Shown here piece by piece: positions 564 to 63,791 of a DNA stretch of 64,000 nt. Within the stretch, counting starts at the first letter, position 1; the number at the start of each line of letters is the position of its first letter. The notes under the pieces were generated by a model that was given only the letters and a program-made list of their open reading frames with translations, was not told where the DNA came from and ran no database searches. Where the stretch lies: contig OZ024879.1 in NCBI GenBank assembly GCA_964017185.1, positions 29,670,956 through 29,734,955 on the forward strand. The letters are read 5' to 3'. A program made the position numbers and the translations under genes. The DNA comes from Rugalucina vietnamica (taxonomy: Eukaryota; Mollusca; Bivalvia; Lucinida; Lucinidae).

Positions 564-798
564 CCACTGTCCCGAACCTTGCCCTTCTTCTGGTATCCAC
601 AACTTGCAGAATTCTTGGCTCCTCCCGATTTAGTCTCTCCCGACTTGATCGGGAGTTGTTCACATGAAGAGGGTGTGTCGGGCTGTTTGTGTCGGTGGTG
701 TTACTAAGAGCAGAACCAAATCGCAACTGAGCCTCTGTGGAATCCATGATGGTGATTAACCAGTCCCAAGTAGGTTTGAGGTTATACTCAAGGTACAG
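564..798 (-). CDS. UBR5: UBR5 exon 32 (last coding exon in the window)
   Basis: Begins [17 protein letters not shown] and continues into [14 protein letters not shown] and [19 protein letters not shown], a hallmark of UBR5. Acceptor TTTTAG, donor GTGG|GTAAGT, phase 1. The next exons, including MLLE and HECT, lie left of the window. Confidence 0.94.
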
Positions 799-3700: not shown

Positions 3701-6700
3701 TCCCATGAGGCGGCTCATTTGGTACTGGTATTATGACTTGTCTTCGTTTCAATCTTTTTCAAGATTTCTGAGGATTCGGTCCTTTTCTGTCTAAAACCTT
3801 CTCAATTCTTACCAGCGTCTGACCCAGCTGTTGCCATGGTAACTGCACTCCTCTGTACACTGACATTGTCCTGGTTGCTATGGATACTCTCGTCATCGCT
3901 CTCTGATTCAGCAAGAAGGTCAAGGTCCATGTCACTCTCAGCAACTGGAATACAAGTTCACGTTTGTTTGATTTTTGACCGAGCCATCATTTCCTCTACG
4001 TATTTAAAGTAAATGTCTCTTGTGTATATCAGTGTATAGTTCAGACTAGAACCTACAGTTTACCACCAGGTCAACCATCTTCCCTTATCATATACAGTGA
4101 GCATTTATTTGTTTGTTTTTATTGAGGTTGAATGTCCCAGTCAACAATTTTTCAGTCATGTCAGGAGGGACCTACCATTTCCTGGGTATTAACCAGTACT
4201 CTTGGGAGTTAATGTGTCTTGCTCATGGACAAAACATGGCACCACATGTGGGAATCAAACCCAGGATCTCTCCATCTGGGGTTGATGCTCTACCACCAGG
4301 CCACCAAACACCTTGTTTGTGGGGGGGCAAAAAACTTAAGCAGACTCTACTTTGTTCCAAATGAGATGGACTTACAGCATGTATCAGTATTGAATGATCA
4401 AGGACACCAAGATAATCAGCACTCTTATCCACGTGGCCAAAGAGGTTGCCAAAATTTAAAGTGACCGAGATAGATTCAAACTCAAAGGGAGATAATTACC
4501 ATCATCCTGTTCTGGAGGTTGTTGTTCATGATCTGACCTCTCCGACTGCCTATCTTCATGGTCTGACTGCTGCTCCGATGAACGCTGGAACTCTAAGATG
4601 CCACCTCCTTCTACCTCAATCTAGGAAAAAGTCAGGACAGTTAAACATTAGATACAGAAACAATGAGAATAACTTTTTATATCTCTTTATGCACTAGTCT
4701 TCTGGATCAGACTTTAATGGACATTGACATTGTGGGTCCTTTTTTCTAGATGCATTAGAATAACCATATGCATTAGCCACATTATACACATATTGTATTG
4801 GCATAAGCACCAAAAATGGTTTTAAAATCAAGCAAAACCATCAAAAAATGATGTCCATTTTGCAAAAACAAATAATTATTTTCTAAAACAAACAAACAAA
4901 AAACATACCTCCTCCATGTCAACCGGAAGCATTTCCTCTTCATCTCTATCAGCAGGAGCTTCACTGTCTGGCTCATTGATCTCGACTCTCGATATGTCAG
5001 GGCGGTACGGGGACGATTGGGTAACCTGGTCTGGCGACTGCGTTCTAGGTGGAAGGGGGTCCACACTGAATACTTCCTCGCTACCCTGAAGTAAAAAAAT
5101 ATTTATCATCTTAATATGTAAAACTGTTGGAGAGGTTTTAGATTTGGACAAAAATGTGTTGATATGTCGGGGACGGTACAGGGATGATTGGGTCACCTAG
5201 TCCAGAGACTAAGTCCTGAGGTAATGAATACTTCAGCAATTCCCTGAAGCCAAAATTAAATTATCATTTCCATATCCAAAACTATTAGAGGCATTTGTGA
5301 GGTGGACAAAAAATGCTTGAATCTTGATATGTGAAAGCTTTGGAACACTCACTTACACTTAAGGACACCCTTTTGAACTATCTCTTGGAAACACTCTCTA
5401 AACATTTTGGAATAAAAAAAAACCTAACACTTGGAGACTCTCATACACTTCTGAACTTTCTCTTACACTTTGAACTATCTCTTACACTTTGGGTCACTAT
5501 CTTCCACTTTGGAACTCTCTCTTACACTCTGGAACTTTTTCTTACACTTTGGGTCACTATCTTCCACTTTGGAACTCTCTCTTACACTTTGTGTCACTAT
5601 CATCCACTTTGGAACTCTCTCTTACACTTTGGAACTCTCTCTTACACTTTGTGTCACTATCTTACACTTTGGAACTCTGTCTTACACTATGAATCTTTCT
5701 CTTACACTTTGTGTCACTATCTTCCACTTTGGAACACTCTCTTACACTTTGTGTTATTATCTTACACTTTGGAACTCTCTCTTACACTTTGGAACTCTCC
5801 TTAAGTTTAGGTAACTGAGTGGCCACCTATTGGGAAAATAGCTGCTCATTTGGCTTACGATATGTTTTCATTGTTTAAGTACCTGGTTGTTAGTTTGGAT
5901 TTTTCCCACCTCGGTTTTTGGAGTGGGAATCTTTTTCTGATTGCGCCTTTTCCTGATCTTTGCCTACTTGTATCTCTTACACTTAAGAACTCTCTCTTAC
6001 ACTTTGGAACTCTCTCTTACACTTTGTGTCACTATCTTACACTTTGGAACTCTCTCTTACACCCTGGAACTTTCTCTTACACTTTGGGTCACTATCTTCC
6101 ACTTTGGAACTCTCTCTTACACTTTGTGTCACTATCTTACACTTTGGAACTCTCTCTTACACTTTGGAGCTCTTTCTTACACTTTGTGTCACTTTGAAAC
6201 TCTCTCTTACACTATGGATCTTTCTCTTACACTTTGGGTCACTATCTTACACTTTGGAACTCTCTCTCTTACACTATGGATCTTTCTCTTACACTTTGGA
6301 ACTCTCTCTTACACTTTAAAATGCTCTCTTACACTTGACTAATGATTAAGTTAATCTACACAAACCTGTACGGCATCAATATTAGCTGACTCAAGTGAAA
6401 AAGTAGCAGTTGGCCGTACAGCTCCAAGTCTGACAGGGGCAATCAGAGAATTAGCGACCTCACAAAGTTCTTCTACTGCTACGTTAATTAGGGCTTGGAA
6501 CACTCTCTTATAGTAAATCTTTCAATATATACTAACCTGTACAGCATCAACATTAGCCGACACCAGTGGGAAGGTAGCAGTTGGTCGAGCTGCTCCCAGT
6601 CTTACTGGCGCTATGAGAGAGTTAGCAACTTCACAAAGTTCTTCCACTGCTATGTTGATTAGGGCTTGGAATGCTCTCTTACACTTGACTAGTGGCTGAC

Positions 6701-9700
6701 AGGAGGGTATACCAGTGCTGAAATACATTTGAGCCGTTGTGTGACAAAACCAACAATTTGGGTTTCCGACCAGGTCCGACATAAAACGACCTGTACAGTC
6801 ACAGAAGCAGGCTAGAAACCTGAAATTTCAGATTTAAGAAGAAGATGGATTGTACTATCTGTGTAGTGAAAACAAAAGCACTGATCAGCTTCGCGGTTAC
6901 CGTGAAGCTGGTCTGCGCCTTTGTTTTCGCATATGCAAGTTGTTGGTTTTCTTGTGCTGAAATACATTCAAAATTTGATTCAAATTAAGATTTTAATACT
7001 GTATAAGGAGTCCTAGTGCAACACTTTTTAGTAGCAACATTAAGTATTTCATGGAGAACGAACAAAAAATAAAATTTAATAACCTCTGATCAAATATTAA
7101 TTCCATCCTTACAAAGTCTTTTAGAGATAGTAGTCAGGTGTATTTGAAGTTTATGACTGGGTCCAAAACAACACAAGAATATGGTTTAAGGCTTGCAATT
7201 TCAAAATGAGATTTAAAAAGTAGGATAATTCACACATCTATTCAAGTAAATCTATTTACCTTTTCTTTTTCCCAGAGTTAGGAGTCATCTCAATGTTGAG
7301 TATAACAAATATTCTGGCCACAGATCGTATAAATCTTCTGGCTACCATTTTGGCTTCAGCTTTACGCCCCTCGATATTTTCATTCTTCATTTCTCGTATC
7401 AGAGTTGTTAGTAAAGTGTCAAGCATCTGTGAGAAAAAGATGATTTTGGTTAAATTAACAAAGATCCTCGCCATAGTATATAAAAGCTCCAGGCCACCAT
7501 CTTGGCTACAGCTTTACGACCCCATGTATCCTCAGTTTTTATTATTTGTATTATGTTGTTAGCAGGATATCTAAAATCTATTAAAGAAGAATGCTTCTGG
7601 TTTAGTATCACAAAGGATAAATCTCCCTCAATATTCCTTTTCTTAAAGGACAATGATTGAACTGTCAAGTCTAAAACAGCCTGCTCTGACTTCAGATGTG
7701 ACTGTTCTTCTTCAGCTTAGATAAGTAGCTTTTAACGACCGGTGGACCAGGGACTTTAATTTAAAATTCTCTGACTTATGGCTAAATCACCACTAACCTC
7801 AACACTACACTTGACAAGCAGACAGTGGGTAAATTTGTCTAATCTTGCAGTCCCACTTTGACTCTCAAGATACAACTGTTCTTCGTAAATCACGTCCGGG
7901 CTACTGCTGCGTCTTGGTCGCCGGCCGCTCAGTAACATGGCCCTTACAGCAGTCCAGTCGTTGAGGATCCTTTCCAGGGCTTGTCTACTGAATCTTGGCG
8001 GCTGTAGGTCATGCTCAGGCATCTCAACATCTGGATATAGAAAAAAAATTGTAACTATTTCTTCTCATTATTTTATCTTTTACAGTATTAGTAGTATTAT
8101 CATCTAAAACAGCCCCTTTTGAATTTTTTAATTCAGTTTTACAGCCCTTTCAAGATTATTTCAGCTCATCAAGATTATTTCAGCTTATAATGGGTCAATC
8201 AGTAGGTGGTCTGAAAAGGGGAGAATCCCGAGAAAAACCACCTGGCACACCTGCAAGCAGAACTTGGCTCGTCTCACATGGCCAGTGCGGGTCTCAAACC
8301 CACACCAGACTTTTTGATAAGCACTACTTTAGCTTACACATTATTTTTCCAATTAGTCTACTACTACTAATGAGACAAAAACCTGGCTCGGCATACAAGC
8401 TTGGCAGCTCGGGCTCGGCATGGACTTTCATACCACACCATGCCCTGAGGTTATAAAACTTTTTTTCAAGCTCAACTCAGCTGAGCATGAAATTTAAACT
8501 GCTCATAAATGCTGAAAAAAACCAAATAAGTTGAAATTTCAGGTTTATATCACCATATCCTGTAATTTATATCGCTCATAAATGTTAAAATGCCAACAAT
8601 TGTTGGCATTTTAACATTTATGAGCACGATAAATTTTAGTCTCAGCTGAGCTGAGCATGAAAAAAAAGTTTCATACCACACCATACCTAATTCTGAGGCT
8701 GGTGTCTTCCTAGGAACGGCCGATGTAACCCTGTTCCTATTCCCTGGTGCTGGTCGGTACTGTCTCTGTTCAACCAGCTGTCGACCCACAGTCTGAACCA
8801 GGAACAATAGGATGTTCTCTCCCCTAAAACAACATAAAAGATACATTATTCTTGCACACCTGACATAAAAATGTCAGTATATCCAAGGTTTTGTGCAAGG
8901 GTAAAAATTCTATCTACCACAGGTTGTTTGCCCCCGTGTTCAAGTGTTCTTTCTTAAAACTGGCTGTATAGGATGTCATGTAACTTCATCGTTCCGCGCA
9001 CACGTCACAATGACGTCAAAATTTTCTATTTCAAACTGGCAGACAACATGATTTTAGCATTTTTCAATTTTAAAGTTGTGAAAATCAACCCTTACCACAT
9101 GAAGGTGTGCAGGAATTGTACTATCCATGTAGCAAAAACAAAGGCACTGATCAGCTTCGCAGTTCGAAGCTGACCTGTGCCTTTGGATTCGCATATGCAG
9201 ATTGTTGGTTTCCTCATGATGTGGCTCAAATAATTCCTGAGCAAGCCTGACTGGCGGGTTAGTTTACTAGAATTTAGTGCCTAATTTTCATCAGTAATTG
9301 CCGATTTCCTATCTCCAAGCAAGAATGTTCCAGATATCTAGTAGGTCTATCTCTGAAGTCAGCATGCATACAAAGTCGATAGCTATTGCCTAAGCCTCAT
9401 TGTCTCAGGGTTGACTACAGGCAAGGTAAATTCAGAAATCTGGGAGTCGCATAAATCTTAGACCAAGATCAACTTCAACATTTGAGCCAACAATGTGGTT
9501 TTTGAACAGGTCTGACACAAACCGGACTGTACAGCTACAGAAGCAGGCTAGAAGCTTGAAATTTCAGATTTAAGAAGAAGAGGAAGTGTACTATCCGTGT
9601 AGCGAAAACAAAGGCGCTGATCAGCTTCGCGGTTACCGCGAAGCTGATCTGCGTCTTTGTTTTCGCATATGCAGATTGTTGGTTTTCCCATGGGGCGGCT

Positions 9701-10228
9701 CATTTATGTCTTAGCTGTCTATATCAAGAAAGCTTATAAGAATCTTACACGAGTGTCAGCGATGGATAGACAAATTTGTCCTAAGGATCACTTTGGCATT
9801 ACGAGGCTCGCCGAGACAAGTAACACATACCTGCTATTATTAAGAGTGACTAGGTCTGTCTCAGCCAGAAGCTTGATAACCACATACCTGCTATTATTAA
9901 GAGTGACTAGGTCTGTCTCAGCCAGAAGCTTGTTCAGTAGGTCAATTCTGACGCCCTGCTGCCCAGCAATTATGACCTTACATTCTTAATTTCTCGCAGT
10001 AAGCGTTTATCTATTTCTTTAAATGATTAAAGCAGTGAGTAACAACAACATACCTGCTATTATTAAGTGTGACTAGGTCCGTCTCAGCCAGAAGCTTGTT
10101 CAGTAGATCAATCCTGACTCCCTGTTGCCCGGCAATCAATGCCTTACATTTACATTTCTCCCAGCAGTCACAATACGCAGTTGGAGATGTTCTCTTTAGT
10201 CTGAAATTGCCAATGTTTACATCAAAAG

Positions 10229-10259
<31 letters not shown>

Positions 10260-13200
10260 CAGTTAGCTGAGGGCAACTCATTTATTCTCCCCGTCATTTG
10301 GCACACAGGGTCGGGGAGGATCATCCCCCTGAGTGCCTTACAAACTACATGGGTGGATTTGCGTATAAGAAAGTGTGTTCATTCTCCACTCTCCATTCAC
10401 AATTCATTCAATTAATATGTTATGATGGTCTACAATACAAACAGTTGTTTTAACAATAAAAAATATCATATCTACATCAATGAATGGTTACCACCTATAA
10501 AATTTTGATATTTTGTTAAAAATTATGATTTCAAATATTGTCATGTGTTAATTGAACCTGATTTACTGGTAGCCTTTCATTGATGCTAAGTATATCTAAA
10601 TTTATGTATATCCTACTTTGTTGTGTAAATTCCAGCTTCACTAAATGGGTTAAAGCTAAACTTGAATGACAATGTGTTCACCTCAGATAAGTGAAAAAGA
10701 AAACAACAGCAACAACATATGTATATAAGGAATAAGGTATCAAAAGCAATTTTAACGATTACATTTAACATCATGACTTTGCAATAAATAGGCTTTAAAA
10801 CCTGACTTCTACATGGTAAAATGGAAATACGGTAAAAATTCTATTAAACACCCACACTCTAATAAACGCTCTGACATACCCCTATTTGCATGCCCAAAAT
10901 GGCCATTTTATGTGAGTTTTGGAATTCAAAGAACCTCTAATAAACACCCACTTTAAAAAAAGTTGGGAAATATCCAATATTTTTAAGCAGTTAATCAATA
11001 ATTTTGCTATTTTGTTACAAAATCTATTTTTCTCTTGTAGTCCAAATAAGCGGTAGTGCATAGGATACCCGAACATCTATTTGGAATAAAAGTCCTGTCT
11101 AGGGCAGATTGAGAGCCATCAATAATTTCAGTTCTTATGTATATGGATTCTTGAATGTTGCCCTCCAATGTAGGCTCCAATAAACACTCATCCCCTTCTA
11201 TTGTAAAGGTACTGTTTTCAATAGAATTTTTACAGTAAATGTGTATCCAGTATTTTTTTTCTACTCTAAAGCATAAATTGTTCCTACATACTGAAAACTT
11301 TCTTTGAATTCATGAGGCAATGAATTTGCAAAAAAATTACTGTCAGAAATTTTCATGTGACTTTCATTTCGCAAATTTTCTATTTCCGAATTATTGGTGA
11401 GGTTTTGAATTTGAAAGCGAGTTTTCGTATGTCTATGTGATTTATAGAGATTCTTTATTAGCGAGAATTTTATATTGGTGAGACATTCAATTCGCGAAAA
11501 TTTCTTGCAAACATTTCCAAACTAAGAGTATGTTCTCGCTTTAAATAGATTTCTGAATTTCCAGTATGTGACAAATACATAAATAGATCCTTTTTGATGA
11601 CTGGTTGCATTGTGTTATGGCTTGTCATTCCAGCCAACAATATTTAGGTACTGTAAATCCGGAAATTTTCGCGAGAACTTAATTTTCGCTAATATTCTCG
11701 AAGTCGTTGCTTCGCGAAAATAAATTTCTCACTAATAAAGAATTACTATAAGCTTTATAGACTGCTCGAGTACTCGCTCGCGAATTCAAGAACTTGCTAA
11801 TAATTCTGAAATTGAAAATTCGCGAAATAAAAGTCTCGCGAAAATTTCCGAATTTACAGTATGGTAGAATAGAGACTGTGCTAGCTTTCAAATCACATGC
11901 TTTTCCCTTCGAAGATCTAAGCTCTACCACAAGGCCACTAAGCGCTCACCGATAAACCTCTTATATTATTTTCATACACACACTACAGCTTTGAAACTCC
12001 ACACAGAAAACAGCAGAAACCCAAACAGACTTCATTCATGTAGCAGATAATTAATGAAATGCTACATTTACTCCTCACAAATTATTACATAAGAATACTT
12101 TGTTACTCACTTGCAATCATGTCCCTTGTGACAGACTCGGGCACATTCAGTACAGCAACATAGAGAGCCCAGCAATCCGCAGGTCTTACACTCAAAGATG
12201 TCCTGAAAGTATTCATGTAAGACTAGATCAATTTTCATGTAAAGCAATGTAACCAAAGTTAAAGTTTTCTAAGCTTTACTTTAGAGGATTTTATTACCAA
12301 TAAATATATGCAATCAAAGCTGCAAAATCTTGAACACTAGGCTATAGTCACAACTGATTGGAAACGGGCTCTGTTCCGCTCAAATCTTATTCTAACTAAG
12401 TGATCAAACTTAAGATATTACGTAAAAGCTAAGAATTTCCTCCTACCTGGTTTATATGCTCGGCTCCAGTCCAGGTAAAACTACAGGTATCATTACAACA
12501 CAACACCAGTAGAGGTGAATTATCCAGACTTAAACCACATAGATAGCATGATAGATAAAGCCTACCTGGTTAATGTGTTCAGCCCCAGTCCAGGTAAAAC
12601 TACAGGTTTCATAACAACACAACACCAGTAGAGGTGAATTATCCAGACTTAAACCACATAGATAGCATGATACATAAAAAGGTACAAGTAGGCAAAGATC
12701 AGGAAAAGGCGCAATCAGAAAAAGATTCCCACTCCAAAAACCGAGGTGGGAAAAAACCAAACTAACAATCAGGTACTTATATCATGAAACATATCGTAAT
12801 CCGAATGAGCAGCTATTTTCCCAATAGGTGGCCACTCAGTTACCTTTACTTAACTAAAAATATGAAAACATACATAAGGCGCCAACAGCACAAAAAAAAG
12901 TTTTTACACACCAAGACATAAAACAAAAAGAACCACTACAGAAGTATCGACTTGGAACGATCAGTAACACAAAGTTACTGGCGGGCTTAAACCGGTTTTA
13001 CATGGCCATAACCTCACCCTCAGCTTCTGCAGTGGTTCATAACATTTAGTTAGTTATTCGGTCCTCGTGGTGAATCTCTAACTAGTCAATGAATCATCAA
13101 GAACAAACAAATAAATCATGATAAACATCCTGATGAATCAAAAACCAGGACTCACAGACTGAGTAAGCTGCCCGACGATGGAGATCCCTGGGCGCCGAAT

Positions 13201-16200
13201 AACCTACTAACTCCGGAGCAAAAGAAAACCACCAGTTGGACCCCGGTGGGCCAAGCAACAGACAAGAAGCTCCGGCCCCAACCAACTAAAATGAATAGCT
13301 TTATGTCGGGGCCATCATAGAGTCTGACGCCCGACCCACCGGCGTGCAATTAAAGAAGGCAGCATAGTTATCAACCATAATTGGGTTAAAAACTAAGCAT
13401 GCAGACTGTCGCATAACATTCAAGTTATAACCTATACGTCTGTAACGTGTTATGATTTTTCTGAACTGAAAAGAAAAATCATTAATTCCTTTAAGTTTCT
13501 TAAATTTGTAAACCAAGTCACCATAAAATTCAGGTTCCGAAAGGCCCTCACTTAAAAGCGTCTTTAACCCAACATTATATTTGGAAATCAATTCATAGTG
13601 TCTACGATAAAATTTAGAAAATGTTTTTCGAAGTTTATGATACCGATAGCCCTGTTGGAGAAGTTTTGCCGTTAAACATTTATTACGAGCGTTGAAGTCT
13701 GTAACATGATTGCAGACTCTAGCAAACCTAATAAGTTGCGAAATGTATACACCATAAGAAGCACGACGAGGAACGTCACCATCCAAAAAAGGAAAATTTA
13801 CTATATCAAAATCAAAGTCATCGCGCTTATAAAGCCTACCTGGTTTATATGTTCAGCTCCAGTCCAGGTAAAACTACAGGTATCATTACAACACAACACC
13901 AGTAGAGGTGAATTATCCAGACTTAAACCACATGGATAGCATGATACATAAAGCCTACCTGGTTTATATGTTCAGCCCCAGTCCAGGTAAAACTACAGGT
14001 ATCATTACAACACAACACCAGTAGAGGTGAATTATCCAGACTTAAACCACATAGATAGCATGATACATAAAGCCTACCTGGTTTATATGTTCAGCTCCAG
14101 TCCAGGTAAATCTACAGGTATCATTACAACACAACACCTGTAGTGGTGAATTATCCAGACTTAAACCACATAGATAGCATGATACATAAAGCCTACCTGG
14201 TTTATATGTTCAGCTCCAGTCCAGGTAAAACTACAGGTATCGTTACAACACAACACCTGTAGAGGTGAATTATCTAGACTTAAACCACATAGATAGCATG
14301 ATACATAAAGCCTACCTGGTTTATATGTTCAGCTCCAGTCCAGGTAAAACTACAGGTATCGTTACAACACAACACCTGTAGTGGTGAATTATCTAGACTC
14401 GAACCAGGGGGATACAACATGCTCATCATGATGGCGCGGTCAACTTCTTGCGTGTCCTTGACCATCGAGACTTTCTTGATGGCGTCCATTAATGCCATGG
14501 CTGCTGGATAGGCTCGACCTCGGACAGCCTGCATGAACGGTGTACAGCCTTCGGCATTCCTGTGTGAATACAGCAAGACATATTCTCAATTTACAGATAT
14601 TTTACAGCATTATTTTTCCAAAACATTTTTGGTCTTTCGTAGCTTCTCACTTCTTCTCCAATGAAAAATGAGCCGCCTCGTGGGAAAACCAACAATCTGC
14701 ATAGGCGAAAACAAAGGCGCAGATCAGCTTCGCAGTAACCGCGAAGCTGATCAGCGCCTTTGTTTTCGCTACTCGGATAGTACAATTCCTCTTCTTCTTA
14801 AATCCGAAATTTCAAGCTTCTAGCTCTTTTCTGTGCTTGTACAGGCCGGTTTGTGTAGGACCTGTTCGAAAACCACATTGTTGGTTTTCCCACGAGGCGG
14901 CTCAAATGTATGATTTCAGTGGCTCTGTATCTTGTTTGTTTGTTTTTCTTCAATCTTCTATTGCTGTAGAGCAAGGTTTTGTGTGGTTCATTACATAAAA
15001 GCCTGAAGACAGGTTGACAGGCTGAAGATAACAAATATTTTAAGTAACTTAAAACTTTTTTTTTCTTTTTATTCTCTAAGAAAATGACATATCTACCTTG
15101 ATGATAATAAGTCCCTCAGGTGAGGTTTCAGCGCAGGGGAGTCACAGATCAGCTTGAGTATAAGTAGAGCTTGATTTGGCCTCTCTTTCTCTTCTATCTT
15201 GACTGGGGGCACAGTCAGCGTACTAAACTCGCCTAGGAGAGGGATTGAGGACTGGCCACTGGATGATTGTCTACTCAGACTTGGACGCTCTGAATCAGCT
15301 GCTGCAAGAAACATTAAATACATGAAAATGAAACCTACAATAAATGAGCCGCCTCATGGGAAAACCAACAATCTGCATAGGCGAAAACAAAGACGCAGAT
15401 CAGCTTCGCGGTAACCGCGAAGCTGATCAGCGCCTTTGTTTTCGCTACTCGGATAGTACAATTCCTCTTCTACTTAAATCCAAAATTTCAAGCTTCTAGC
15501 TCTTTTCTGTGCTTGTACAGGTCGGTTTGTGTCGGACCTGTTCGGAAACCACATTGTTGGTTTTCCCACGAGGTGGCTCAAATTTTATCAATCTGACTGT
15601 TGCAAAACCATTTTCCCTTCAATAATTATCACTTTTGCATATTACCTGGCTTAGGACATTGACCAAGGAGATTCAGTATCTAAGTCAACACTTCCCTAGA
15701 ACACTTCTAAATGTTGATGAATTATCGTTGGCTTGATTTGATAGGTGGATATGTTCATGGTAAACAATTAAGATCAGGCAGGGACAATCTGGTATCATAA
15801 CCAAATCGTCAAGAGGCATACTACCATTACATAGTAAAAAAGTTCTATCCCTTCATGATCATCATTTACTCCCATCGCATGCCCTTATGCTAGCTAACTT
15901 CTTACCCTGTCGTGTGACAGACTCATAACTAGGTGGGTCGGGTGGCCAAGTCAGTGTTGGTATAGCTATCCCAGGATCATCACGGTCTGGGTCTCTAACG
16001 TCAAGCCCACTCACAGCCCGGGCTGCTGAGGTCGCCCGCCTCATCATCTCACGCAGGTTTACACTGAAAATAACATAGAGTTAAGAAGAATAAAGATAAT
16101 CTTTATATCTGCATGTAAGAGAAAGTATTTTCCTGATAAGGTTTGCTTTTGAGTTCGATCCACACAATGTAAACACATTTCTAAAATCAATGTCATTAAT

Positions 16201-25200: not shown

Positions 25201-28200
25201 ACTTACACAGGAGGTTTTATCTTGAAGCGGCACGTGTCATTGAGTGACCAGGCTGACTCGAGTAACTGTCCCACTTTAGGTATACCATCAACCGTGGTAA
25301 ATGCTACAGCTCCAGAGTGGAACATTGGGGAACTTCTTAGACAAACCTAGAAAAGGAGAAGGTCTCTTTTGAATAGAAATCTGCCTATAGAAATTTAAAA
25401 ATAAAAAATATAGCGGAAATGGAAAAAAATCTCTCCTAAACAATAGCTGGTCTGGTTCTTGAATTATCCCAAAATTTGTTTTCTTGGTTGATGATGTTCC
25501 TTTTTGAAAATTTTGGTTAAAAATATAATTCCCCCTATTAAACATACAGGAAACAGAAATATTTTTATGAAGATGTGTTCCCCCCCCCCCCCCACCCGAG
25601 ATCAACAAAATCCTTTTGCATGCACTTGTAAATCCTTTTGCATGCACTTGTATTTTACAAAAATGCATATCATATACAAATGACGCTCTTGATCTCTGTG
25701 GGGGAAGGCTGTCAAAATGCCAAAAAACTAAATTATGATACTAGCTCATCAAATACCTGATTTCAATAATTTTGTGCAAGCCTGTAGCTTGTTTATATAC
25801 ACATTCTTCCTTGCTGAAATTGGTTTAGTCATGTCAGGAAAAAGTCTATCTTCAGATTTTCAACCAAATAATCCATTATACATGTAATACAGGATTTCTT
25901 CGTTTTAGAAATTTAAGTATCTGTACTGATGTGTTTTAATTAAGCTTAAAGGTTTCTTTGCACCCAATTTGTGCTTTTATCTGTGAAGACTATTAAGAGG
26001 TATATCATAACGAAGCGTATTTGAGACAAGTCAAACTCTGCTTGGACAGGAGATTTTATTCTTTGCTAAACATAAAAATGTTCTCTGGGTCAGTTTTGTT
26101 GCCATAAAGCACAAACAATTAAGTTTTGATGTAGCATCCATGTATAAGGTGCATTTATCAGACACACAACTAAAAATCTTAGTACATGTATTGTATGTAT
26201 AATGTGTGTATTTATGATATACCTCAGTGAATAGGGTAGGTAATACAGGTTATGCTCAAAAGTTATGGACAATATAATTATTTACCAAAGGAATGCAATA
26301 TTTTTTTATTTACTTTTTATGAAAATGGGGCCACCTGCAACATCTTTTTATGTCCCAAATGTTATATTGGCATGTATTTGATGGATATGGTCGGAAATTT
26401 TGATATTCTGAATGAAAATTTTTTGTCAAAAAATTTACCCCTACCCTCAAACCAGAGGACCAATGGTCCTATAAACGCTCACCTGAAACCCGAGATATAT
26501 ACCAATACACTTGTTTGACTAGAATGGTACTATACATGTATATAACCCCAGGGCAACCCCTGGAGTCATTTTCTTTTTGAAAACATAAAACTTCAGTCCA
26601 TTTGCCAATTTACTGCAAGTTTTGCCCTTCAAATGACATTTAAACAATTTTCCCCATTCAAATGCATGGGCGACCTAAGTTGACCTTGCCATAAAATAGT
26701 TCAAGGTCATCCAAGGGTCACAATTTATATAAACTTTGTAGAGCTCCATTGCCTGATGCTTCATGCCAAGTTTCAAAATCAAAGGTCTTCTGGTTCTGGA
26801 GAAAAAGATTTTTAAAGGTTTTTGCTATTTATAGCCATGGCAGCCATCTTGGTCATGTGACCTTGACCATTTATATATACTTTCATTCCCACTTCCTAAC
26901 AATGCTCCTCATAAAGTTTGGCTTTGGTTGGCCAAGCAGTTTCAGAGAAGAAGATCTTTGAATATCACTGTAATATACATGTATATTGCCCCGGGGTGGG
27001 GGCAGACAGACCCCCGGGGTCCAAATTTTTTCAGAATCATAAATATTAAGTTCATTTGCCCATTTCCTGCAAGTTTTTCCCTACAAATGACATTTTAACA
27101 CTTTTCCCCATTCAAATGCATTAGCGACCTATGTTGACCTTGCCATAAAATAGGTCAAGGTCATCCCAGGGTCATGATTTATATAGACTTTGTAGAGCTC
27201 CAGTCACTGATGCTTCACACCAAGTTTCAAAATCATTGGCCTTCTTGTTCTGGAGAAGAAGATTTTTAAAGGTTTTTTTTCTATTTATAGCCATGGCGGC
27301 CATCTTGGTCATGTGACCTTGACCATTTATATAAACTTTCTTTCCCCCTTCCCAAGGAAGCTCCATATGAAGTTTGGCCTTGATTGGCCAAGCGGTTTCC
27401 GGGGAGAAGATGTTTCATTATTATGGAAATATACATGTATATAGCCCCGGGGCAGGGGTAGATAACCCCCCCCAGGGGCGAAAATTTTCCATTTACATTA
27501 ATCTTCTGTCCATTTGCCTATTCCCAGTAAGTTTTACCCATTAAATAGCATTTTACAATTTTTTCCCATTCAAATGCATTGGCGACCTAAGTTGACCTTG
27601 CCGTAAAAAAGGTCAAGGTCATCCTAGGGTCATGATTTATATAAACTATGATGGGCCCGCTTCCCCAATGCTACATACCAAGTTTCGTGGAAATCGGCCC
27701 ACTGGTTCTGGAGAAGAAGATTTTTAAAGGTTTTTGCTATTTATAGCCATGGCGGCCATCTTGGTCATGTGACCTGGACCATTTATATAAACTTTCGTTC
27801 CCCCTTCCTAAGGATGCTCCACATGAAGTTGGGCTTTGATTGGCCAAGCGGTTTTAGAGGAGAAGATCTTTGAAATTGTGAACGACGACGACGGACGACG
27901 ACGGACGACGGACGCCGGAGCATGGGTATACTATAAGCTCACCTGTGAGCCTTCAGCTCAGGTGAGCTAAAAACTGAAGCCATGGCAAGTACATGTAAAA
28001 TGTTCAAACAGAGTTTATTTTGTTGAGTGCACAAGACATCAGGCTTTCTGAAAAACACATGCTTACAGTCATAACTTTCGTATTTTTCAAGCTACAGGCT
28101 TTCAAAATATAGGCAAACTGAATGCTATTTAACACATGATCCTTAAGGAAATTGAAGCGACATGTGTCATTGAGTGACCAAGCTGAAAAATGATGCTGAT

Positions 28201-31200
28201 TCAGGTTATTGTCCTACTTTAGGTATACCATCCACAGTTGTAAATGCTACAGCACCTGAGTGTAACATTGGGAAACTTCTTAAATAAACCTAGAAAAGAA
28301 ACATTGTTTGTTTTGTGGTTTACAATTATTGTCAAGAATTTCTTAGTTATGCCCGGACGGTGTCTATTAGCCAGAACTAAGGCTGGTTAATGTGTCTTAC
28401 TCAATCACACCATTGGGCCCCGTGGGATTCAAACCCATGACATCGCCACCCCCTTGGAGTCTAAAGCTCTATCATTAGGTCCCTCAAAAACTAATACCAG
28501 AATCAGCAAAATGAGAAAGTTCTTTTTCCTTATCTCAGAACTGAAATACTTTGCAGATAGTAGTTTGTTTGTTTGTATTGAGGCTTAACGTCCCAGTCCA
28601 CAATTTTTCAGTAATGTCAGGATGGAGCCAATGCTTCCTGGGTTTAACCAGTACTGTAGGGAGTTGATGTGTCTTGCTCAAGGACAGAACACGGTGCCAT
28701 CTGTGGGGATCGAACCCAGGACCTCTCAATTCAGAGTCTGATGCTCTACCACTACGGCACCATGCTCCCTGCAGATGGTAGTCTGTAAACATACCAGTGA
28801 GCCAGTAGTGACATCACTCTGTGAAGCTGTTTTACTCTTCTTCTTCTTAGACCGGCTTCTCTCTAACAGTTTCTTCCTCTGGGCAAATGGCATGGCACCC
28901 CTATACATAGAGAAAATCAGTTATTTTTATTCAAAATTGGTCTAACTGGAGCACCTTTTAATGTTCCTCCAGCTCTTAAAGGATCTATTTGAGCCGCCTC
29001 ATGGGAAAACCAACAATCTGCATATGCAAAACCAAAGGCGCAGATCAGCTTCGCAGTAACTGCGAAGCTGATCAGCGCCTTTGCTTTTGCTACACAGATA
29101 TTACACTTCCTCTTCTTTCTAAATCCAACATTTCAAGCTTCTAGCCTTCTTCTGTGCTTGTACAGGCCGGTTTGTGTCAAACCTGTTCGGAAACCACATT
29201 GTTAGTTTTCCCACGAGACGGCTCATTTGTTATCAATGCAGCTGACGTAGTGACAGGAAATATTCCTGTATCCCTGCACCTACAGGTCAGTTCAAATTGT
29301 ATTTCAGCCTTTTTTGCGTTGCAGTTAAATTTAAAGATTCAAGCACCAGTTAAGTCACATGGACTTGGGACTTTAGCTTTCATTTTTATGTTTGTTCCGG
29401 GCGGACTTCAGTTTCTTATTATTAGCATGTGCTTAGAGTGATGCCCCATAACCAACATAAGTAAAAGCCATGTATTAACAGCATGTGTGCATGTGAATTG
29501 CACTATTAATACATGGCTTTCTCCTCTTTAATCAATGGTTGTTAATATCATGTGACACAGGTATTTATGCAATAATAATGAAAGCATAAGCTATACATGA
29601 TAATCATTATCTGATCCACTATATTCTAAACCAGAAACACTACTTAAACATGCACAGCAACAATAAATTAAGATATTATCAACTTTAATTGAACCGTCTC
29701 GTGGGGAAAACCAACAATGTGGTTTTCGAACAGGTCTGACACAAACCGGCCTGCACAGTAACAGAAAAGAGCTAGAAGCTTGAAGTTTTGGATTTAAGTA
29801 GAAGAGGAATTGTACTATCCAAGTAGCGAAAACAAAGAAGCTGATCTGCGTCTTTGTTTTCGCCTATGCAGATTGTTGGTTTTCCCATGAGGCGGCTCAA
29901 TTGTTAAGCAATGAACGCTAGCTACAACACAAATCCAAGACTTACCACCAATATAAAGCGCCACTTTCCAACCTGGCACATGTAAACAATGAACACGTAT
30001 GAAGACTACATATCTTATCCGACTGGAACTCCGTGAACGTCTGGGCCGCATGTTCCAATTTCTGCGCCACCACGCCCAGCGTGTCGTCTATCCAGGTCGC
30101 GACTTTGTCGGACTCCGTGTAGACCGAGGCACGGACTGCGCAGGCAGAGATACCAAGGATTTTCTCTTGTTGAAGGCCAAGAGGGATTGTCTTGGGGTGA
30201 TGAATATTTGAATTCTGGAAAAGTAAAGCAAAATTAATTTTTGTTAATTCAGGACATGACTATTTGTAGTTTGAAGCACGCACAGCTTAAGCCAACATAC
30301 TCAGGATTTTCTCTGGTTGGAGGTCCAGAGTACAGCAAATACTTAACTTCTTTGATACTTCTGGATCTATCTGACAGTTGAGCCGCCTCATGGGAAAACC
30401 AACAATCTGCATAGGCGAAAACAAAGACGCAGATCAGCTTCGCTGTTACTACCGCGAAGCTGATCAGCGCCTTTGTTTTCGCTACTCGGATAGTACAATT
30501 CCTCTTCTACTTAAATCCGAAATTTCAAGCTTCTAGCTCTTTTCTGTGCTTGTACAGGTCGGTTTGTGTCGGACATGTTCGGAAACCACATTGTTGGTTT
30601 TCCCACGAGGCGGCTCAGTTTATAAGCACTTTCAGCAAACAGAAACAACTGAAGAACAACTTCACGCTTGCTTTTGAAGTATGAAAAGTGTTTTTATTTT
30701 TGTATATAATTAAGTTATCAAAGAAAAGAATTTGCTTTCAATACTTGGTCTTGATAATACAATGAAGATTGAACCCGACAGGTATAATTACATCCTCAAA
30801 TGAGCATATGCAGTCTATTAAATGAGCCGCCGCATGGGAAAACCCAGTCTGCATAGGCAAAAACAAAGGCACAGATCAGCTTCGCACTTGATCAGCGCCT
30901 TTGTTTTCGCCACACGGATAGTACAATTCCTCTACAATTCCTCGTACATCCAAAATTTCCAGCCGCTGGCCATCTTCTGTGACTGCACAGCCAGGTATGT
31001 GTCGGACCTGGCCGGAACCCAAATTGTTGGTTTTCTCACGCACAGGCTCAAATAGACTAGGTCCTGCGCAGAAGCTCCTCTGGTTCTTAGTATTTTACAA
31101 CCCACACATCAGCTGAAGTCGTATAATGATGGGACCTCCACTTAAAATCTCATTTAAATGAATGAAGTCTGGAGTGGTTTGCAAGGCATGTGACATTACC

Positions 31201-34200
31201 ACTACTCCATGCAGTTTTCTCTGGTACTTTAATTTTTTCATAGGTAAACATCTGTGTTTCTCATAAAACAGCATATAATATGAGCTGAGACACGAGAAAA
31301 CCGGTCTTCAGGGTTTCCCACAAGGTCTGACACAAACCGACCTGTACATTCACAGAAGCAGGCTAGAAGCTTGAAATTTCCGAATTAAGAAGAAGAATAA
31401 CTGTCCTATCTATGTAGCAAAAACAAAGGCACTGATCAGTTTCGCAGTTACTGCGAAGCTGATCTACGCCTTTGTTTTCACATAGGCGAAAATCTGCTTT
31501 TCTCACTATGTGGCTCATATATGAGCAGCGTCATGTGAAAACACTTTTATTTTCGCCAATGCAAAAGCCACATTTGTTTTCACTACAGATCACCTTTGCT
31601 TTCACTACTCAGATAGTAAAATTCCTCTTCTTAAATAGAACATTTCGAGCTTCTAGCCCTTTTCTGTGACTGACAAGGCCAGTTTATGTCAGACGTGATC
31701 AAAAAACCTGACAAACGTTTTTTCTTGCATCAGTGGCTCACATAATACCCAAATTAACCTACCTCTGGATGTTTATAAGGTTCATAGTCGTTCCATTTCC
31801 AGCTGTACAGCTGGCCATTGGTTCCTATAGCAACCAGGTCAGAGTGCATGGCAGCAATATGGCTGAACCGGGGAAAATTACCATCCTGAAAGAAAATTGG
31901 AGGATAAATTGACAGGGGGTTCATTAGTCACAATTCTGTTGCCTCCGACTTCAGCAAAGTTTAGTTAATTCTTAAGTATCCTGTGAGTTTAGCCATCACT
32001 ATTTTTCAATTTCCACTGCTTTTCTTTTTCAAAAAAAGTACACAAGTTCTTGACTTTGTGATCGAGTATTCAAGTAGCCTTACAATCTCTGATGGCAATA
32101 ATTTGGAAATTTACAAACAAACCTGTGTATGCATCAACAAAATTATTTTCTTGCAAACAATTCTAAATTTACAGCATCATCAATAATATGCTTCTATGGA
32201 CACATAACAAAAATTGAACCGCCTCATGGGAAAACCAACAATCTGCATATGCGAAAACAAAGGCGCAGATCAGCTTCGCAGTAACTGCGAAGCTGATCAG
32301 CGCCTTTGTTTTCGCTACACGAATAGCACAATTCCTCTACTTTCTAAATCCAAAATTTCCAGTCTCTAGCTATCTTCTGTGATAGTATAGCCCGTCTTGT
32401 ATCCGACCTGTTCGGAAACCACATTGTTGGTTTTCCCACCAGGTGGCTCAATTATCTTTCATTAATCTACTTTTTCCATCCAATACTGCATATCTTCCCC
32501 AAACAGTAGTGGATTGGACAGAGGACTCTGGCCCTTCTTCAGACTGTCAGTAGTAAACCCTTCCACTTTGTCTCGCTCCAGTGATTTCAATGCTTCATCT
32601 CGCAGGGTTGTGTCCAGACGACGTCTATCCCTGATTCTAAATATAGATTCCCGCTCTCTGTCTCTGTCAAGGTCACCGACTCTTTCTGATCTTTCACCTT
32701 AATTTAGGAGTACAAAATTATGAGTTTATTAAAGTAATGTGGTATTGAAGCAAGTTTTCTAAGCATTGTTTTGTTGGGGGTTTTTTCATCTTAATATACA
32801 AAATGTTCCTAGTATATTATACAATTGTTGCCCTTGAGTGAGGGTGACATGACGATTTGTTCACCCGAGACAGGTAATATTGCCGAGGGCGAAGCCCGAG
32901 GGCAATATAACCTGTTGAGGATGAACAAATCGTCATGTTACCCTCACTCATGGGCAACAATTGTTTTATTATACCGAATCACATTTGAAATAAATTAGTG
33001 ACATGCTACATGACAAACACATGTTTACACATTTACGATAATATACTCATCAAAAGAAGTTATGCACCAGTTAATATTTTTCTCATTTTAAAATCATGTC
33101 AAGTATAGATATTTTTCAAATAAACTTTTAAAACTTAATACCATCTTAAAGGGCTGGACTTCCTCAATAACAAATCAATATTTTTTCTTAAAAAGATTAA
33201 ATAAAAATGTGCAAAAATGCATGTTTTTGAAAACACCAAAATTTGGGATGCAGCAAAAAGCCCACATCTTTATTTCTGGGCTTTCAAACCCGAATTCGTT
33301 TCACATCCTCATTCGAGATACTGAAAGCAATCATTTAAAGCTAAAAACTAAAAATTGATTTTTTTTTTGACAAAAACACTATTTTTGACCAAAAATAAAG
33401 ATTTTTGAGATTTTGTTTAAATTCTAAGATAAAGCTTAGTAAATCATCTCTCCAATAAAATGGGTTGTTTTTCTTTCAAACACAGCATGCAGCACCCATA
33501 AATGTTTAACTGGAGAAACTGGTTTTCAACCCATCCAAATTCAGAATTTTTAAAAAGCTGCATATTAAAGAAGTACTCATGCAACATCTTCGACATGAGA
33601 TTGCCTTTAACAGAAAGAAAATAGGCGGCAGGTTTTGGTGTTAAAACATCTCATAGTGATCCAAAATTGAAATGAATTTCGAGTTTACTCATTCTTTCCA
33701 ATATTTATCATTTTTTCTCAATAATTGCAATTTTGTCAAAAAATGATTTTTTACTAAATTTTGAGATTTTTTAAATTGTTTTAAGGCTTAATCATTAGCT
33801 TTGGCGCTCTTGTGTGTAAATTTGGAAACAAAAATTTATTCTTAATGCTGTGGCATTTTTTGTGGAATTTTTTCGATTTTCCCATTTTCAGCATTTACAG
33901 AAAATGGGAATTTTAATTTTTTCTAAAATCGTTACCGCAATGATTTTTGGTCTTATCATACACATTATAAAACTCTTTCAGACTGTGCAAATTCAAAAAG
34001 CTAGGTTTAAAATTTATTAGTTAAAATGTCACTTAAAAATGTGAAAAAATCTAAATGGTGCAAAACTTCTTTTGATGAGTATATGACGTCAGAGGGTACT
34101 ATGATCATGCGACATGACAGATTAGCACCCTCCATGTGCACTGTAAACAAACGCAAGTGCAGCTGCACGTTTTAGGCAGATATGGCGTCAGAGGGTAATA

Positions 34201-37200
34201 TGATCATGCGACATGACAGAATAGCACCCTCCGCGTGACCTGCTCTGGACCAATCAAAATCCACACTCAGCCAATGAATATTAATGAAGTATAATAAAAA
34301 AGAAAGAAATCTTATTTTAAGTCATGTGGGAGAAGTTTTTTGCTAGTAATGATGCTTTACATCCACTGGCAACAGCTACGGTCATGTCATGACCGTCAGT
34401 TATCCTGGCAACACTGTCCCTGGGCAAGTCTCCCAGAGGCAGACGACAAATATGTTGTGCACATTTCTTTTACTACTGACTGACAAATGCTTTTCTTGAC
34501 TCCTAAACATACATTGTACAAATTCAACAAATTAGAAACTCATACCTAGCCTAGATCTTGTACCAGAGCCTCTACTCCTGATTGAAGAATAACCAAACAT
34601 GTCTTCACTGAACATGGCGTCAGAGTCAATGATAACACTAGGATGATCCGGGTGTATTCCACTGTCGAGAAGTGAAATTAGGTCGTCGGGAACGTACGAG
34701 TCCTGGCTGTCGTCGTCATCACCTTCCCCTTCATCGTCACGACTAAGTAAGTTGTTGACGGCAAGATTGACATCTAGGTTCTGAAATATGGTTTTATGAC
34801 ATAAATTGAGTTGTGTTACATGTCAAATGATTTGGCATCTGAATCCAACGATTTCAGATTCATCCATCCAGTCTGAAATGGAATTTGATTTAGTATAAGA
34901 GCTTAGATCCATTATTTTGTTTGATTTGCGGTTTAATGTCATTTGAGGCAAATGATTTCAACTTAGGAACTTGTGAAAATTGATCTATCCAATCTGATTA
35001 CTCTGAAATGGAACTTGATTATAAGGTTAAAGAGCTTGGAAACTTTTTTGTTTGATTTGTGGTTTAATGTCCCAGTCAATAGTTTTTCATTCATGTTAGA
35101 ACAGAGCCACTGCATACTGGAAATAAATCAGTACTATGGGGAGTAAATTTGCTTTTAGAGCACTTAGCTTTCTTCATGATGAAAGTGACAACACTGAACA
35201 GGCTAGCATCCTAGCAAAACAAAAATTTCATTATAATCTCTTATTTTAAATTTTTATATTACTTAGGAAATGACCAATCTAACCTGATATGATCCAATTT
35301 GCAGTAATATGCAGTTATACTTACAGTTCTTTGTAATTCCCTAATAATCAAATTCCTGGACTTCCCCTGAAGCACCACCTGACATTGACTGATCAACTCC
35401 TCCGGGACGACAGACGCAGGCACCAGGGGACGTGTCCCCACTATGACCCCTGACCTACGTCCTCTGTTGACGTGGACAGCCCTCTGCATGGTGCGGTAGG
35501 CCTGGGACGTGGTGTTTCTGGCACTGGCCGTGGAACCTGTCACGCTAACGCTGGTGCCCCAACGACTGAAATATATTAATCAGAGTTCAAAATATTAAAA
35601 AATCTTAACATCCTTCTTTCTTCACTTTATAATTTTATAGTTCAACTAGGGCTTTCTTGGCTTTTAAATTATAAAGTGAAGACATGGCCTTCATTTAAGT
35701 CTCATCTGAATGACTGGAGAAACCTAAGATTGAAACCACAACCCATGATTTATAAGGCTTTTAAAGGTTAAACCATGGAGGTTTACGAGTTTATATAGGG
35801 AAATGAGTTTAATGACTAGAATTGTCTTTCAATCATAGTCAAAGCCACACCTCAGGCTACATAGTAACATCACATAGTAACATCAGCTTGCATACAGTTC
35901 ACAAATTTGGCTCATCTAAAATACTGAGTAAAACTTACGCTGTAGGCTGATCAGTTCCTGTTGTACCAAGGACATCAGAAACTAGTACCAGAGGGCTCTC
36001 AACTACATGACTAGCACCACGTGATGTTGATGGTCTTTCACTTCGCTCAGTCTTACTGGCTTTAGTGCTATAACAGATAAAATTGTAAAGATAATAGATT
36101 TGGAAAACTTTATCAATTTATGACGTCGTTTATCAGTCCTTGTGGTTCCGAGGACATCAGACACTAGCACAAGAGGGCTCTCAACTACATGGGTTGCACC
36201 ACGAGATGTTGACGGTCGCTCACTGGCTTTAGTAAAGCAACACAAATTATTGTGACGGTATTAACAAAATTTTGAACATTAAAAATACTGATTTTACATC
36301 CTACAAATATATATCTAGACTTTGTTGTTGTTTATGTGGATTCAATGTCAAATTGTCAATGAGTTTGGACTTGAGATTTAAGAACTTTGATTGCCTGGCT
36401 TGAAGTAATTAGTAATATGAAATAAGGCACTACATTTGTCGCTCTACTCCCATTGCACAGACAATTTTAAAATCAGCTACATATATGACAGCTTCCTCAC
36501 CCTGGTGACCATAGCCGATCATAACCATTATGGAAAGTTAGTTTATCAGTAAGTACAATGCAGCGCGTGTTGAAACGTGACAGGAACACGTGTTGCAACA
36601 TCACGATGACGTCAAAAATAACAATTCCGGTTCCGGTTGACGAAAGATTTTTTTTCCTATCAATGTACAGAAGAGCAGAATAGAACAGAACATTTTACCA
36701 TGTTCTACCACAAGAGCGACGCGTCGCTATTAAAAGAGACAAAACATACAAAGTATTACTACTGGCACTAGTAACATTCAGGCTCTGTGTGTCTGCTAAA
36801 TCTATATCTAGGACTGAATGTAAGCTTAACCCATATTTGATGAATGGATTTTCCCATCATTATCATTTGGAAGAGTCCACTTTCATTTTTAGGGGCATAG
36901 GGAGCGATTTTTAATTTTTATCTAATTTTTCGATGTATTTTCGTTAAGCAAACAGAATAGCCCCAGATGGGACGCCGCGTTCTGGGGCTATACTGTTTGC
37001 CTATGTCCCATAAAAGGGATGCCAGGCTTAAATGTTAAGTGGTTTATCCTACCTCTTGCTGGTGGTGGTGGCTGTATCATGTTTACTAAGGTCAAGCCTG
37101 TCTGTCAGAAGATTGAACTGAACACGACACACTCTCCCGTCCTGAAATCAGTCAAAAATACATGTGCATGTATGACTATAGTGTTGCTGTGCTAAGATTC

Positions 37201-41810: not shown

Positions 41811-42654
41811 CCCAGGGGGGTACTCTCATTTTTTGTTTTTTTTTTAAGGCCCCAGCTTCTACCCCCAAACCCAAAAAATTACTGAGATTTACTGACCACC
41901 CCCAAAAAAATACCAGTCCTATCAGGCATACCCCAAAAAAATACTTGAACTTTTAGCTTACCCCGAAAAATTATTCATCTTTTTTATGCCTATTGATGAA
42001 ATTTTATCACATCCATATGATCTAAGCTGTTGGTGGGACATTAAATCCCAAATCAACCAACCAACAGAACACGCCACAATACAGTTAGTGTATGTAGGAA
42101 CTAGGAAGTAAATACCAAGTTGGATAAAATTTAAAGATTTTATTTATTCTCAAAGTGTAAGTCTTATGATGGTTTTGTTGCAATCCAAACAACATCATCA
42201 TGATCAAGCTTCCAAAATTTCACCGAGACCAGCAATAAGACATGGTCGCAAACAAAATTGAATCTTAAAGCATTGTAAGACATAAGTGTAAGCCACTCGG
42301 CGTACTCTGACGTTGAATTGCAAAACTGAATTATTTTTGTTTTATTTATTGCTTCACATCCATGTCAACAGCTAATACATGACATGTTTATATATAAAGA
42401 GATTTCCCAAGAAATGTGCAAAACCCAAAAAATTACTTAGGAATTATAGATGACCCCCCCAAAAAAAAAAAATAATTCAGAAAAGGCATGACCCCAAATA
42501 AATATCCATAAAAAGCTCACTACCCTAAAAAAAATAACTAGTTTTTCTGAAAACCCCAAAAAATATGGAAATTCAAAATTTTGACCCCCAAAAAGTCAGC
42601 CTCGCCTATGTATACAGAAAATTTCAGAGTACCCCCCCCCCCCCCCCCCCTGGG
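41811..42654. mobile_element. hAT-like non-autonomous element with 8-bp target duplication
   Basis: The left end CCCAGGGGGGTACTCT is inverted at the right (AGAGTACCCC...CTGGG), and the octamer ACTTGCAC flanks both sides (41803-41810 and 42655-42662). An 8-bp duplication with CAGGGG-type ends is typical of hAT transposons. The interior is full of CCCCAAAAAA-like runs and contains a SINE tail fragment. No transposase is present. Confidence 0.82.
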
Positions 42655-42752
42655 ACTTGCACATGCAATATACATGATAAACAGATTATTTTTTTCAATT
42701 GTAGAACTAAATTTCACCAGAAAAAAAAAAAGATTTTTTTTAAATATTTTTG

Positions 42753-42842
42753 CTCAAAACATAGATTGTGGGTACACATTAGAACCACCTCCGCTAACGA
42801 GTACCCACAATCTATGTTTTGGATCAAAAATAAGAAAAAATA
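42753..42842. repeat. Hairpin element (CATAGATTGTGGGTAC arms), copy 1
   Basis: TTGCTCAAAACATAGATTGTG and its complement flank GAACCACCTCC. A second, better preserved copy is at 45627-45730. Confidence 0.8.
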
Positions 42843-63546: not shown

Positions 63547-63791
63547 CTTTAACCAATGAAAACTCTTGTAAATAAATCAACCAATCGCAAAGCTTGTTAG
63601 AAAACTTGCGACAAATTTGTGTGCCAAGAAACCGAAGCCGAATCCTTTAGCGTAAAACTGTGTACTTTAAAAACGAAACCGAGTTCAGTCCCATAATTAA
63701 ATATTTTTATAATAAAAATAATCCCATTATGCTCAGGTCGATCGGATCAATCGGATTGGCTATATCAAGTGCGACCCAGTATAATTTGCAT

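Follow-up and report, generated by a model that had tools for sequence, protein, structure and literature searches.

The window analysed here is a 64,000-nucleotide stretch of the genome of the lucinid bivalve Rugalucina vietnamica (G000:C11:29670956-29734955), which carries part of UBR5, a conserved ubiquitin-ligase gene, on its minus strand. Thirteen of the 32 UBR5 exons in the window are accompanied by partial copies of themselves in a neighbouring intron, and these copies differ from their exons mostly at silent positions, as though they had long shared the exons' constraint. The gene is made up as follows:

580..41332, minus strand: part of UBR5, 32 exons in the window, running on below position 1
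41332 to 4500, minus strand: 28 modelled UBR5 exons with consistent phases, GT-AG at all borders and no stop codon
3939, 3195, 2704 and 797, minus strand: four further UBR5 exons located by tblastn, ends approximate

A tblastn search with the human UBR5 sequence and matches in the PDB named UBR5 concur on the identity of the gene. Among 120 orthologues listed of 655, the closest by identity is that of Mactra antiquata (79%, covering 99% of the query region), and the protein of Ruditapes philippinarum is also 79% identical over the 70% of the query region that it covers.

Every one of the 32 exons was compared by alignment with its neighbouring introns, with the remaining introns and, in reverse complement, with the full set of introns; only one adjacent intron was available for exon 32, and 3 kb of upstream sequence served as 'intron 0'. 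Copies lie beside exons 4, 9, 11, 13, 14, 15, 16, 17, 20, 22, 25, 26 and 27, with alignment scores of 58-186; all 13 are on the exon's own strand and in one adjacent intron, and no exon has copies on both sides. The top exon alignment score in non-adjacent introns is 38, and on the reverse strand of all introns it is 35. The copies and associated repeats are listed here, with the distance between exon and copy given as the offset:

36132..36233, minus strand: copy of exon 4 (35939-36067), upstream, offset 167 bp, acceptor AG lost
30258..30330, minus strand: copy of exon 9 (29946-30214), upstream, offset 147 bp, covering exon nucleotides 32-104, two stops
28152..28289, minus strand: copy of exon 11 (25207-25346), upstream, offset 2943 bp, acceptor kept, 13-nt insertion
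23525..23582, minus strand: copy of exon 13 (23705-23832), downstream, offset 181 bp, donor GT kept
23287..23400, minus strand: copy of exon 14 (23009-23243), upstream, offset 157 bp, acceptor AG kept, one stop
23449-23502, minus strand: remnant of a third exon 14 unit
20541..20666, minus strand: copy of exon 15 (20737-20891), downstream, offset 193 bp, donor GT kept
17717..17846, minus strand: copy of exon 16 (17423-17696), upstream, offset 150 bp, AG kept
16792..16828, minus strand: copy of exon 17 (16480-16732), upstream, offset 96 bp, acceptor AG lost
12447..14287, minus strand: array of exon 20 (14316-14559), six 119-bp units of the 3' end and donor in two clusters
14197-14287, 14078-14168, 13959-14049, 13840-13938, 12566-12656 and 12447-12537, minus strand: the six exon 20 units
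9831..9999, minus strand: two copies of exon 22 (10054-10200), 3' end and donor; the second (9824-9875) is a 100% match to 52 nt of the first
7456..7562, minus strand: copy of exon 25 (7260-7426), upstream, offset 151 bp, acceptor AG kept
6366..6510, minus strand: copy of exon 26 (6537-6717), downstream, offset 171 bp, donor GT kept, frame open
6320-6344, minus strand: start of a third exon 26 unit
5438..6336, minus strand: 20-bp minisatellite, 44.7 copies with 66% matches, the unit resembling AAGTGTAAGAGAGCATTCC of exon 26
5161..5234, minus strand: copy of exon 27 (4909-5085), upstream, offset 158 bp, acceptor AG kept, two stops

To the eye, the 20-bp minisatellite looks like a repeated exon 26 motif. 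Additional units seen by eye beside exons 16, 17 and 25 failed the comparison with other introns and are not claimed.

Copies upstream of their exon retain its 5' part and copies downstream its 3' part in 12 of the 13 cases, the copy of exon 9 being internal and ambiguous. Twelve copies extend to a splice site; ten of them retain the GT or AG dinucleotide, which is gone in those of exons 4 and 17. A preliminary description of this DNA had reported copies at at least eleven exons; all eleven are found here together with exons 9 and 25, which makes its count a slight understatement, and its rule that a copy keeps either the acceptor or the donor end stands as regards the side, with the exception that the acceptor AG of exon 17 is lost. 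The offset amounts to 96-193 bp for 12 exons (median 157.5), exon 11 being the outlier, and is shorter than the exon itself in eight of the 13. The copies of these eight exons were therefore partial from birth, unless later deletions shortened the spacing, and of the earlier wording 'degraded or partial' the second term holds, while decay alone does not account for their form. No copy aligns to both splice sites, and those that reach one reach only that one. The copies share the exon's orientation, lie next to it and retain the outer splice side, an arrangement that matches tandem duplication with one breakpoint within the exon, and the proposed recurrent partial duplication of UBR5 exons is supported. 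For exon 27 the flanking intron is duplicated as well (score 42 versus 28 in the best other intron), and a comparison of flank identity with shuffled letters was uninformative for these AT-rich introns. Three or more units are present at exons 14, 20, 22 and 26.

Classical tandemly duplicated or mutually exclusive exons are whole exons that carry both splice sites, unlike the copies described here. The preliminary description had offered repeated exon birth and loss, with both copies spliced for a time, as one source of the copies, and a related possibility is that the duplicated ends were or still are spliced and translated as alternatives, perhaps by way of internal splice sites of the kind known from intron gain by tandem duplication, and that they decayed recently. 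The silent bias described below would suit such a history, as would the ten retained splice dinucleotides, the well-kept part of the exon 15 copy, which by eye starts at an AAG/GT found in both units, and an array at a UBR5 exon outside the window (L101, see below) whose six units are open in the exon frame. It fits poorly with the short offsets and the single splice side, with stops in the copies of six of the 13 exons (9, 11, 14, 15, 16 and 27) and with read-through from exons 13, 15, 20, 22 and 26, which hits a stop 4-34 codons beyond the donor. Indels in 18 copies are frame-preserving in seven of 23 cases, which gives no signal of frame preservation, and no doubled peptide of any of the 28 modelled exons is present in the 120 listed orthologue proteins. 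On inspection, an internal-splice arrangement misfits exon 22 and fits exon 26 only approximately. In single cases, such as exon 15 and L101, exon birth and loss may apply; as an explanation of the partial copies in general it is decidedly unlikely.

Divergence between copies and exons was counted by the method of Nei and Gojobori (NG86) for 13 exon-copy pairs, one unit being taken per array. Silent differences number 118.5 (287.7 sites) and replacement differences 90.5 (927.3 sites), which corresponds to a pooled ratio of replacement to silent divergence (dN/dS) of 0.175 (bootstrap 95% interval 0.120-0.248). A neutral copy of a fully conserved exon would be expected to show a dN/dS of about 0.5. 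Neutral simulations that used the same aligner, and indel rates and a transition bias that are plausible choices rather than fitted values, had mean ratios of 0.41-0.49 and went no lower than 0.27, with none of 240 runs coming down to the pooled value; the minimum of 240 earlier runs with another scoring was 0.31. The claim that such a bias is foreign to neutral intron copies is thereby borne out, and silent to replacement counts made by eye hold approximately, with NG86 values of 20:6 for exon 26, 11:2 for exon 4, 8.5:5.5 for exon 22 and 9:9 for exon 15; in exons 22 and 15 the differences are almost purely silent in the 3' parts only. The lowest ratios are those of exons 4, 26 and 11 (0.05-0.10), and exons 13 and 25 are near neutral (0.61 and 0.43). 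Neutral tandem duplication alone, with the silent bias put down to chance, counting error or detection bias, would account for the copies of exons 13 and 25 and of two loci elsewhere (L050 and L073), which look neutral or nearly so, and for the excess of local tandem similarity in masked introns described below. The simulations reject simple neutral decay for the pooled UBR5 data, individual copies may still be neutral, and the distribution of variants in the kinesin array discussed below also argues against this explanation, which is very unlikely as a whole.

Several UBR5 copies have a low dN/dS, and the copies of six exons carry stops. Of 98 amino-acid differences, 82 are cases in which the orthologues agree with the exon and nine in which they agree with the copy, and seven are undecided (16 copy rows against 19 orthologues, the exon 20 units being counted singly, so that some differences recur). 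This polarity implies that some of the duplications are older than changes in the exon itself, and that the copies decayed afterwards. Over the 12 copies other than exon 20, silent divergence is even (pooled proportion of silent differences, pS, 0.434, with a saturation value of 0.90; P 0.69), in contrast to the heterogeneous replacement divergence (P 0.0005); with exon 20 added, the corresponding P values are 0.18 and 4e-5. Such a pattern would suit a diverged coding source, that is another UBR5 lineage, functional in its own right (an old haplotype, an allele gained by introgression or a paralogue since lost), which supplied either the copies or the present exons and was joined beside the exon at various times by unequal or template-switch repair. 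A diverged paralogue or haplotype had also been considered in the preliminary description, with a search for a second UBR5 locus as its check. No such locus was found in the 1.09-Gb, 47-contig assembly, where all 25 matches to an 856-residue query fall inside the window; a lost paralogue or a diverged haplotype is a possible source. Further points against it are the low silent divergence of exon 20 (two of 19 sites), the silent divergence of copies in other genes, which varies and is mostly lower, and the existence of arrays with neutral private variants. A within-species silent divergence as large as the one it implies is not known from any animal. A diverged coding source, though the chief rival of the account proposed below, is, in sum, unlikely.

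Exon-edge copies are not specific to UBR5, though UBR5 is extreme. Adjacent copies are present at five of the 30 best kinesin-motor loci (of 133 matches, with 1.5 kb flanks), two of these loci lying in one array, and at two of 20 myosin-head loci (of 91 matches, with 450-bp flanks), one of which, L085, has a weaker match on the other side too. UBR5 itself has a copy at one of seven exonic blocks outside the window, in a stretch that was fetched before inspection; two of the seven blocks are halves of one tblastn match. Together, eight of 57 loci or blocks outside the window carry copies compared with 13 of 32 exons within it (Fisher P 0.008), a contrast that is biased because the window was picked by the preliminary description. 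The control samples are small and consist mostly of best hits, and their flanks are shorter than the UBR5 introns that were searched. DEAD-box helicase loci have copies in none of 30 cases and are a weak control, many of them appearing to be repeat-borne. The control loci share the geometry of the UBR5 copies, with offsets of 131, 154, 154, 172 and 350 bp, and two kinesin loci picked from the match table have arrays of the exon 3' end with donors, of 107 bp repeated 21 times and of 96 bp repeated five times including the exon. Short tandem duplications, mostly of 100-200 bp and reaching from within an exon into the adjacent intron, are thus recurrent in this genome. Five control copies from outside the window have a dN/dS of 0.294 (0.151-0.458).

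An assembly chimera, in which pieces of two haplotypes are set in tandem, comes to mind because high heterozygosity is common in bivalves. Series of 6-20 graded units next to an exon are unexpected from allelic false duplication, as are copies with stops and a silent divergence near 0.6 after Jukes-Cantor (JC) correction, and loci on other contigs show a like geometry. Misjoined haplotypes, which the preliminary description had named as a possible artefact, are unlikely as a general cause, and the chimera is highly improbable as an account of the whole.

Tandem similarity is also seen away from exons. In introns with exons and copies masked, 42 near windows compared with 19.5 far windows reach a score of at least 30 (n=293), and no excess remains at a score of at least 60 (13 near versus 14 far). 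This weak excess implies that duplications may be general and that exons merely make them visible. Three intronic tandem arrays of the window (18464-19176, 37899-38911 and 26581-27871) have periods of 147, 150-155 and 456 bp, the last being about three times 152; these are near the exon-copy offsets, and a duplication step of nucleosome or Okazaki size is conceivable.

The kinesin array with 107-bp units (L077, G000:C10:15532600-15535400) is made up of 21 repeats, the exon among them, of an exon 3' end and its donor. A reading frame continued from the exon meets a stop nine codons beyond the donor, and with a 107-bp unit this means that the units are not translated as a whole. Variants common to at least two of the 20 units are 14 silent to six replacement, compared with 9:35 for variants private to one unit (Fisher P 0.0002); the ratio of silent to replacement sites is 25:74, to which the private variants are close. 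The shared variation is silent-biased and the private variation is not, which indicates a filter that has acted on old variation and not on young. Hot third positions were considered as a mutational cause of the bias and rejected, as the private variants show that silent sites are not hotter. There is no site at which the exon stands apart from every unit, the four-gamete test fails for 81 of 153 site pairs, and divergence shows roughly no trend with distance; the exon and its units behave as one exchanging pool. L077 also provides about 20 spare 5' splice sites within one intron.

Three or more tandem units are likewise present at exon 20 and at L101. The exon 20 array has eight silent to four replacement change events (P 0.0011), which agrees in direction with L077, and a stop 11 codons beyond the donor. 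An open frame at 13301-13852 on the minus strand lies between the two clusters of this array and overlaps their edge; like another at 42551-43114 on the plus strand, it appears by eye to be reverse-transcriptase-like and has no Pfam match. L101 (G000:C11:29661500-29670955, at 599-1513) is a UBR5 exon ending in LYPRVRALQP, behind which come six units of about 135 bp that all carry a donor GT. Its exon and first unit differ at ten positions in the first 66 nt and at none in the next 67, of which 31 are intronic, a mosaic of the kind expected from exchange. The copy of exon 15 has a similar divergence break by eye, its 3' part being near-identical to the exon and its 5' part decayed, and these mosaics suggest exchange between exon and copies. 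L101 is silent-biased within the array (6:2) and against the exon (8:2), and its frame is open through all six units from the exon frame. Isoforms carrying extra 45-residue repeats are conceivable here on the strength of the open frame.

It is tentatively proposed, with somewhat less than even confidence, that exon-anchored tandem repeats exchange sequence with their exon and that selection on the exon filters what spreads. The data show that the duplications leave the full exon and a partial copy bearing the outer splice side, and that some copies have grown into arrays that end in the exon. The proposal adds that, with the exon at the centre, gene conversion or unequal exchange would continue to move tracts between exon and copies. 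Selection would let the exon accept silent and intronic changes only, and just these would pass through it to the other units, while replacement changes would remain private to one unit. Once exchange ceases, a copy would decay neutrally, and at no stage would the copies require a function of their own. A simulation of exchange with the exon as hub and 20 units gave a pS of 0.18 and a proportion of replacement differences (pN) of 0.063 between exon and unit, compared with 0.22 and 0.073 observed between unit pairs of L077.

Several results weigh against this proposal. With two to seven units, the hub simulation gave raw replacement to silent ratios (N/S) of 0.32-3.8, with values under 0.47 confined to a pS of less than 0.04, and no more than 2.8% of samples combined a pS above 0.3 with a pN below 0.1; the bias is thus not produced at the observed divergence. 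General exchange among units combined with an exon filter was tried and rejected as well, the simulated N/S being at least 0.67. Most UBR5 copies are single today, with at least three units at only four of the 13 exons, and lone copies in other genes are less biased, the range of the five control copies overlapping that of the neutral simulations. Private variants of the exon 20 array are silent-biased too (7:3), unlike those of L077. The open frame of L101 means that its silent bias may reflect translation, and the array is therefore not counted as non-coding evidence. The amino-acid differences, 82 of 98 of which are changes on the copy side, and the combination of even silent and uneven replacement divergence, which would also result from a diverged coding source, complete the list. 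The exchange model suits large arrays and does not fully explain the lone UBR5 copies, which, given the failure of the hub simulation at two to seven units, need either once-larger arrays, with the evidence of four exons in 13, or another cause.

Parts of these arrangements have parallels. In the RNA-dependent RNA polymerase (RdRp) gene of potato, one tandem duplication across an intron-exon boundary gave rise to a new intron (Ma et al. 2016, PMC4974935). The duplicated segment spans the border there and the upstream copy is part exonic and part intronic, as in UBR5, whereas here 13 of the 32 exons of one gene are affected, the copies are intronic, arrays occur and the old differences show a silent bias. 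Intron gain in Drosophila by regional tandem duplication, where duplications within the reading frame led to new intron positions, is similar in that part of an exon is duplicated in tandem and one of the copies turns intronic; arrays and silent-biased intronic copies are features of the present case that go without mention in the consulted portion of that paper (Lehmann et al. 2010, PMC2891723). One survey of tandem exon duplications, which made the same kind of search for homology of an exon to the rest of its gene, reports that exonic nucleotides with a homologue of at least 80% identity make up about 2% in human, 0.08% in fly and 0.06% in worm (PMC9013439). No description of exon-anchored arrays with silent-filtered variation was found in the open-access literature, as judged by the titles and opening lines of abstracts among the matches listed.

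Minisatellites undergo concerted evolution, in which units share variants and recombine. The tandem units of 100-170 bp in the arrays described here resemble them in this, and L077 has the three or more units and the shared, recombining variants that characterise such a repeat. The difference from minisatellites is that the end unit of the array is a coding exon under purifying selection, which apparently filters the other units.

Other elements of the window and the assembly were recorded in passing. At 59543-63576 on the minus strand lies an element of the long interspersed nuclear element (LINE) type, with endonuclease and reverse-transcriptase domains in two overlapping frames and a third frame beside them. 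A high-copy repeat, about 230 bp long and containing a palindrome, is dispersed over many contigs and occurs in the window, for example, at 6730-6960 and 9497-9708. The 30,680-bp contig G000:C47 carries COX1 with nine internal TGA codons and is probably a large mitochondrial genome.

A wider proposal is that intronic exon-edge repeats and their exon form a shared gene pool with two-way flow throughout the genome in this lineage, in which the non-coding copies would come under coding constraint and would keep a conserved gene supplied with silent variants, at the risk of passing on replacement ones; in this breadth it is doubtful. A dN/dS below neutral is normally taken as a sign of translation. 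If exchange with the exon is real, arrays of exon ends that are closed to read-through and nevertheless have silent-biased shared variation would break this rule, and such loci would be a clean system for measuring how a gene exchanges sequence with the debris in its introns. The sample suggests that about one in seven conserved exons of this genome carries debris of this kind (eight of 57, being five of 30 kinesin loci, one of seven UBR5 blocks and two of 20 myosin loci, mostly best hits), and it would mislead gene prediction.

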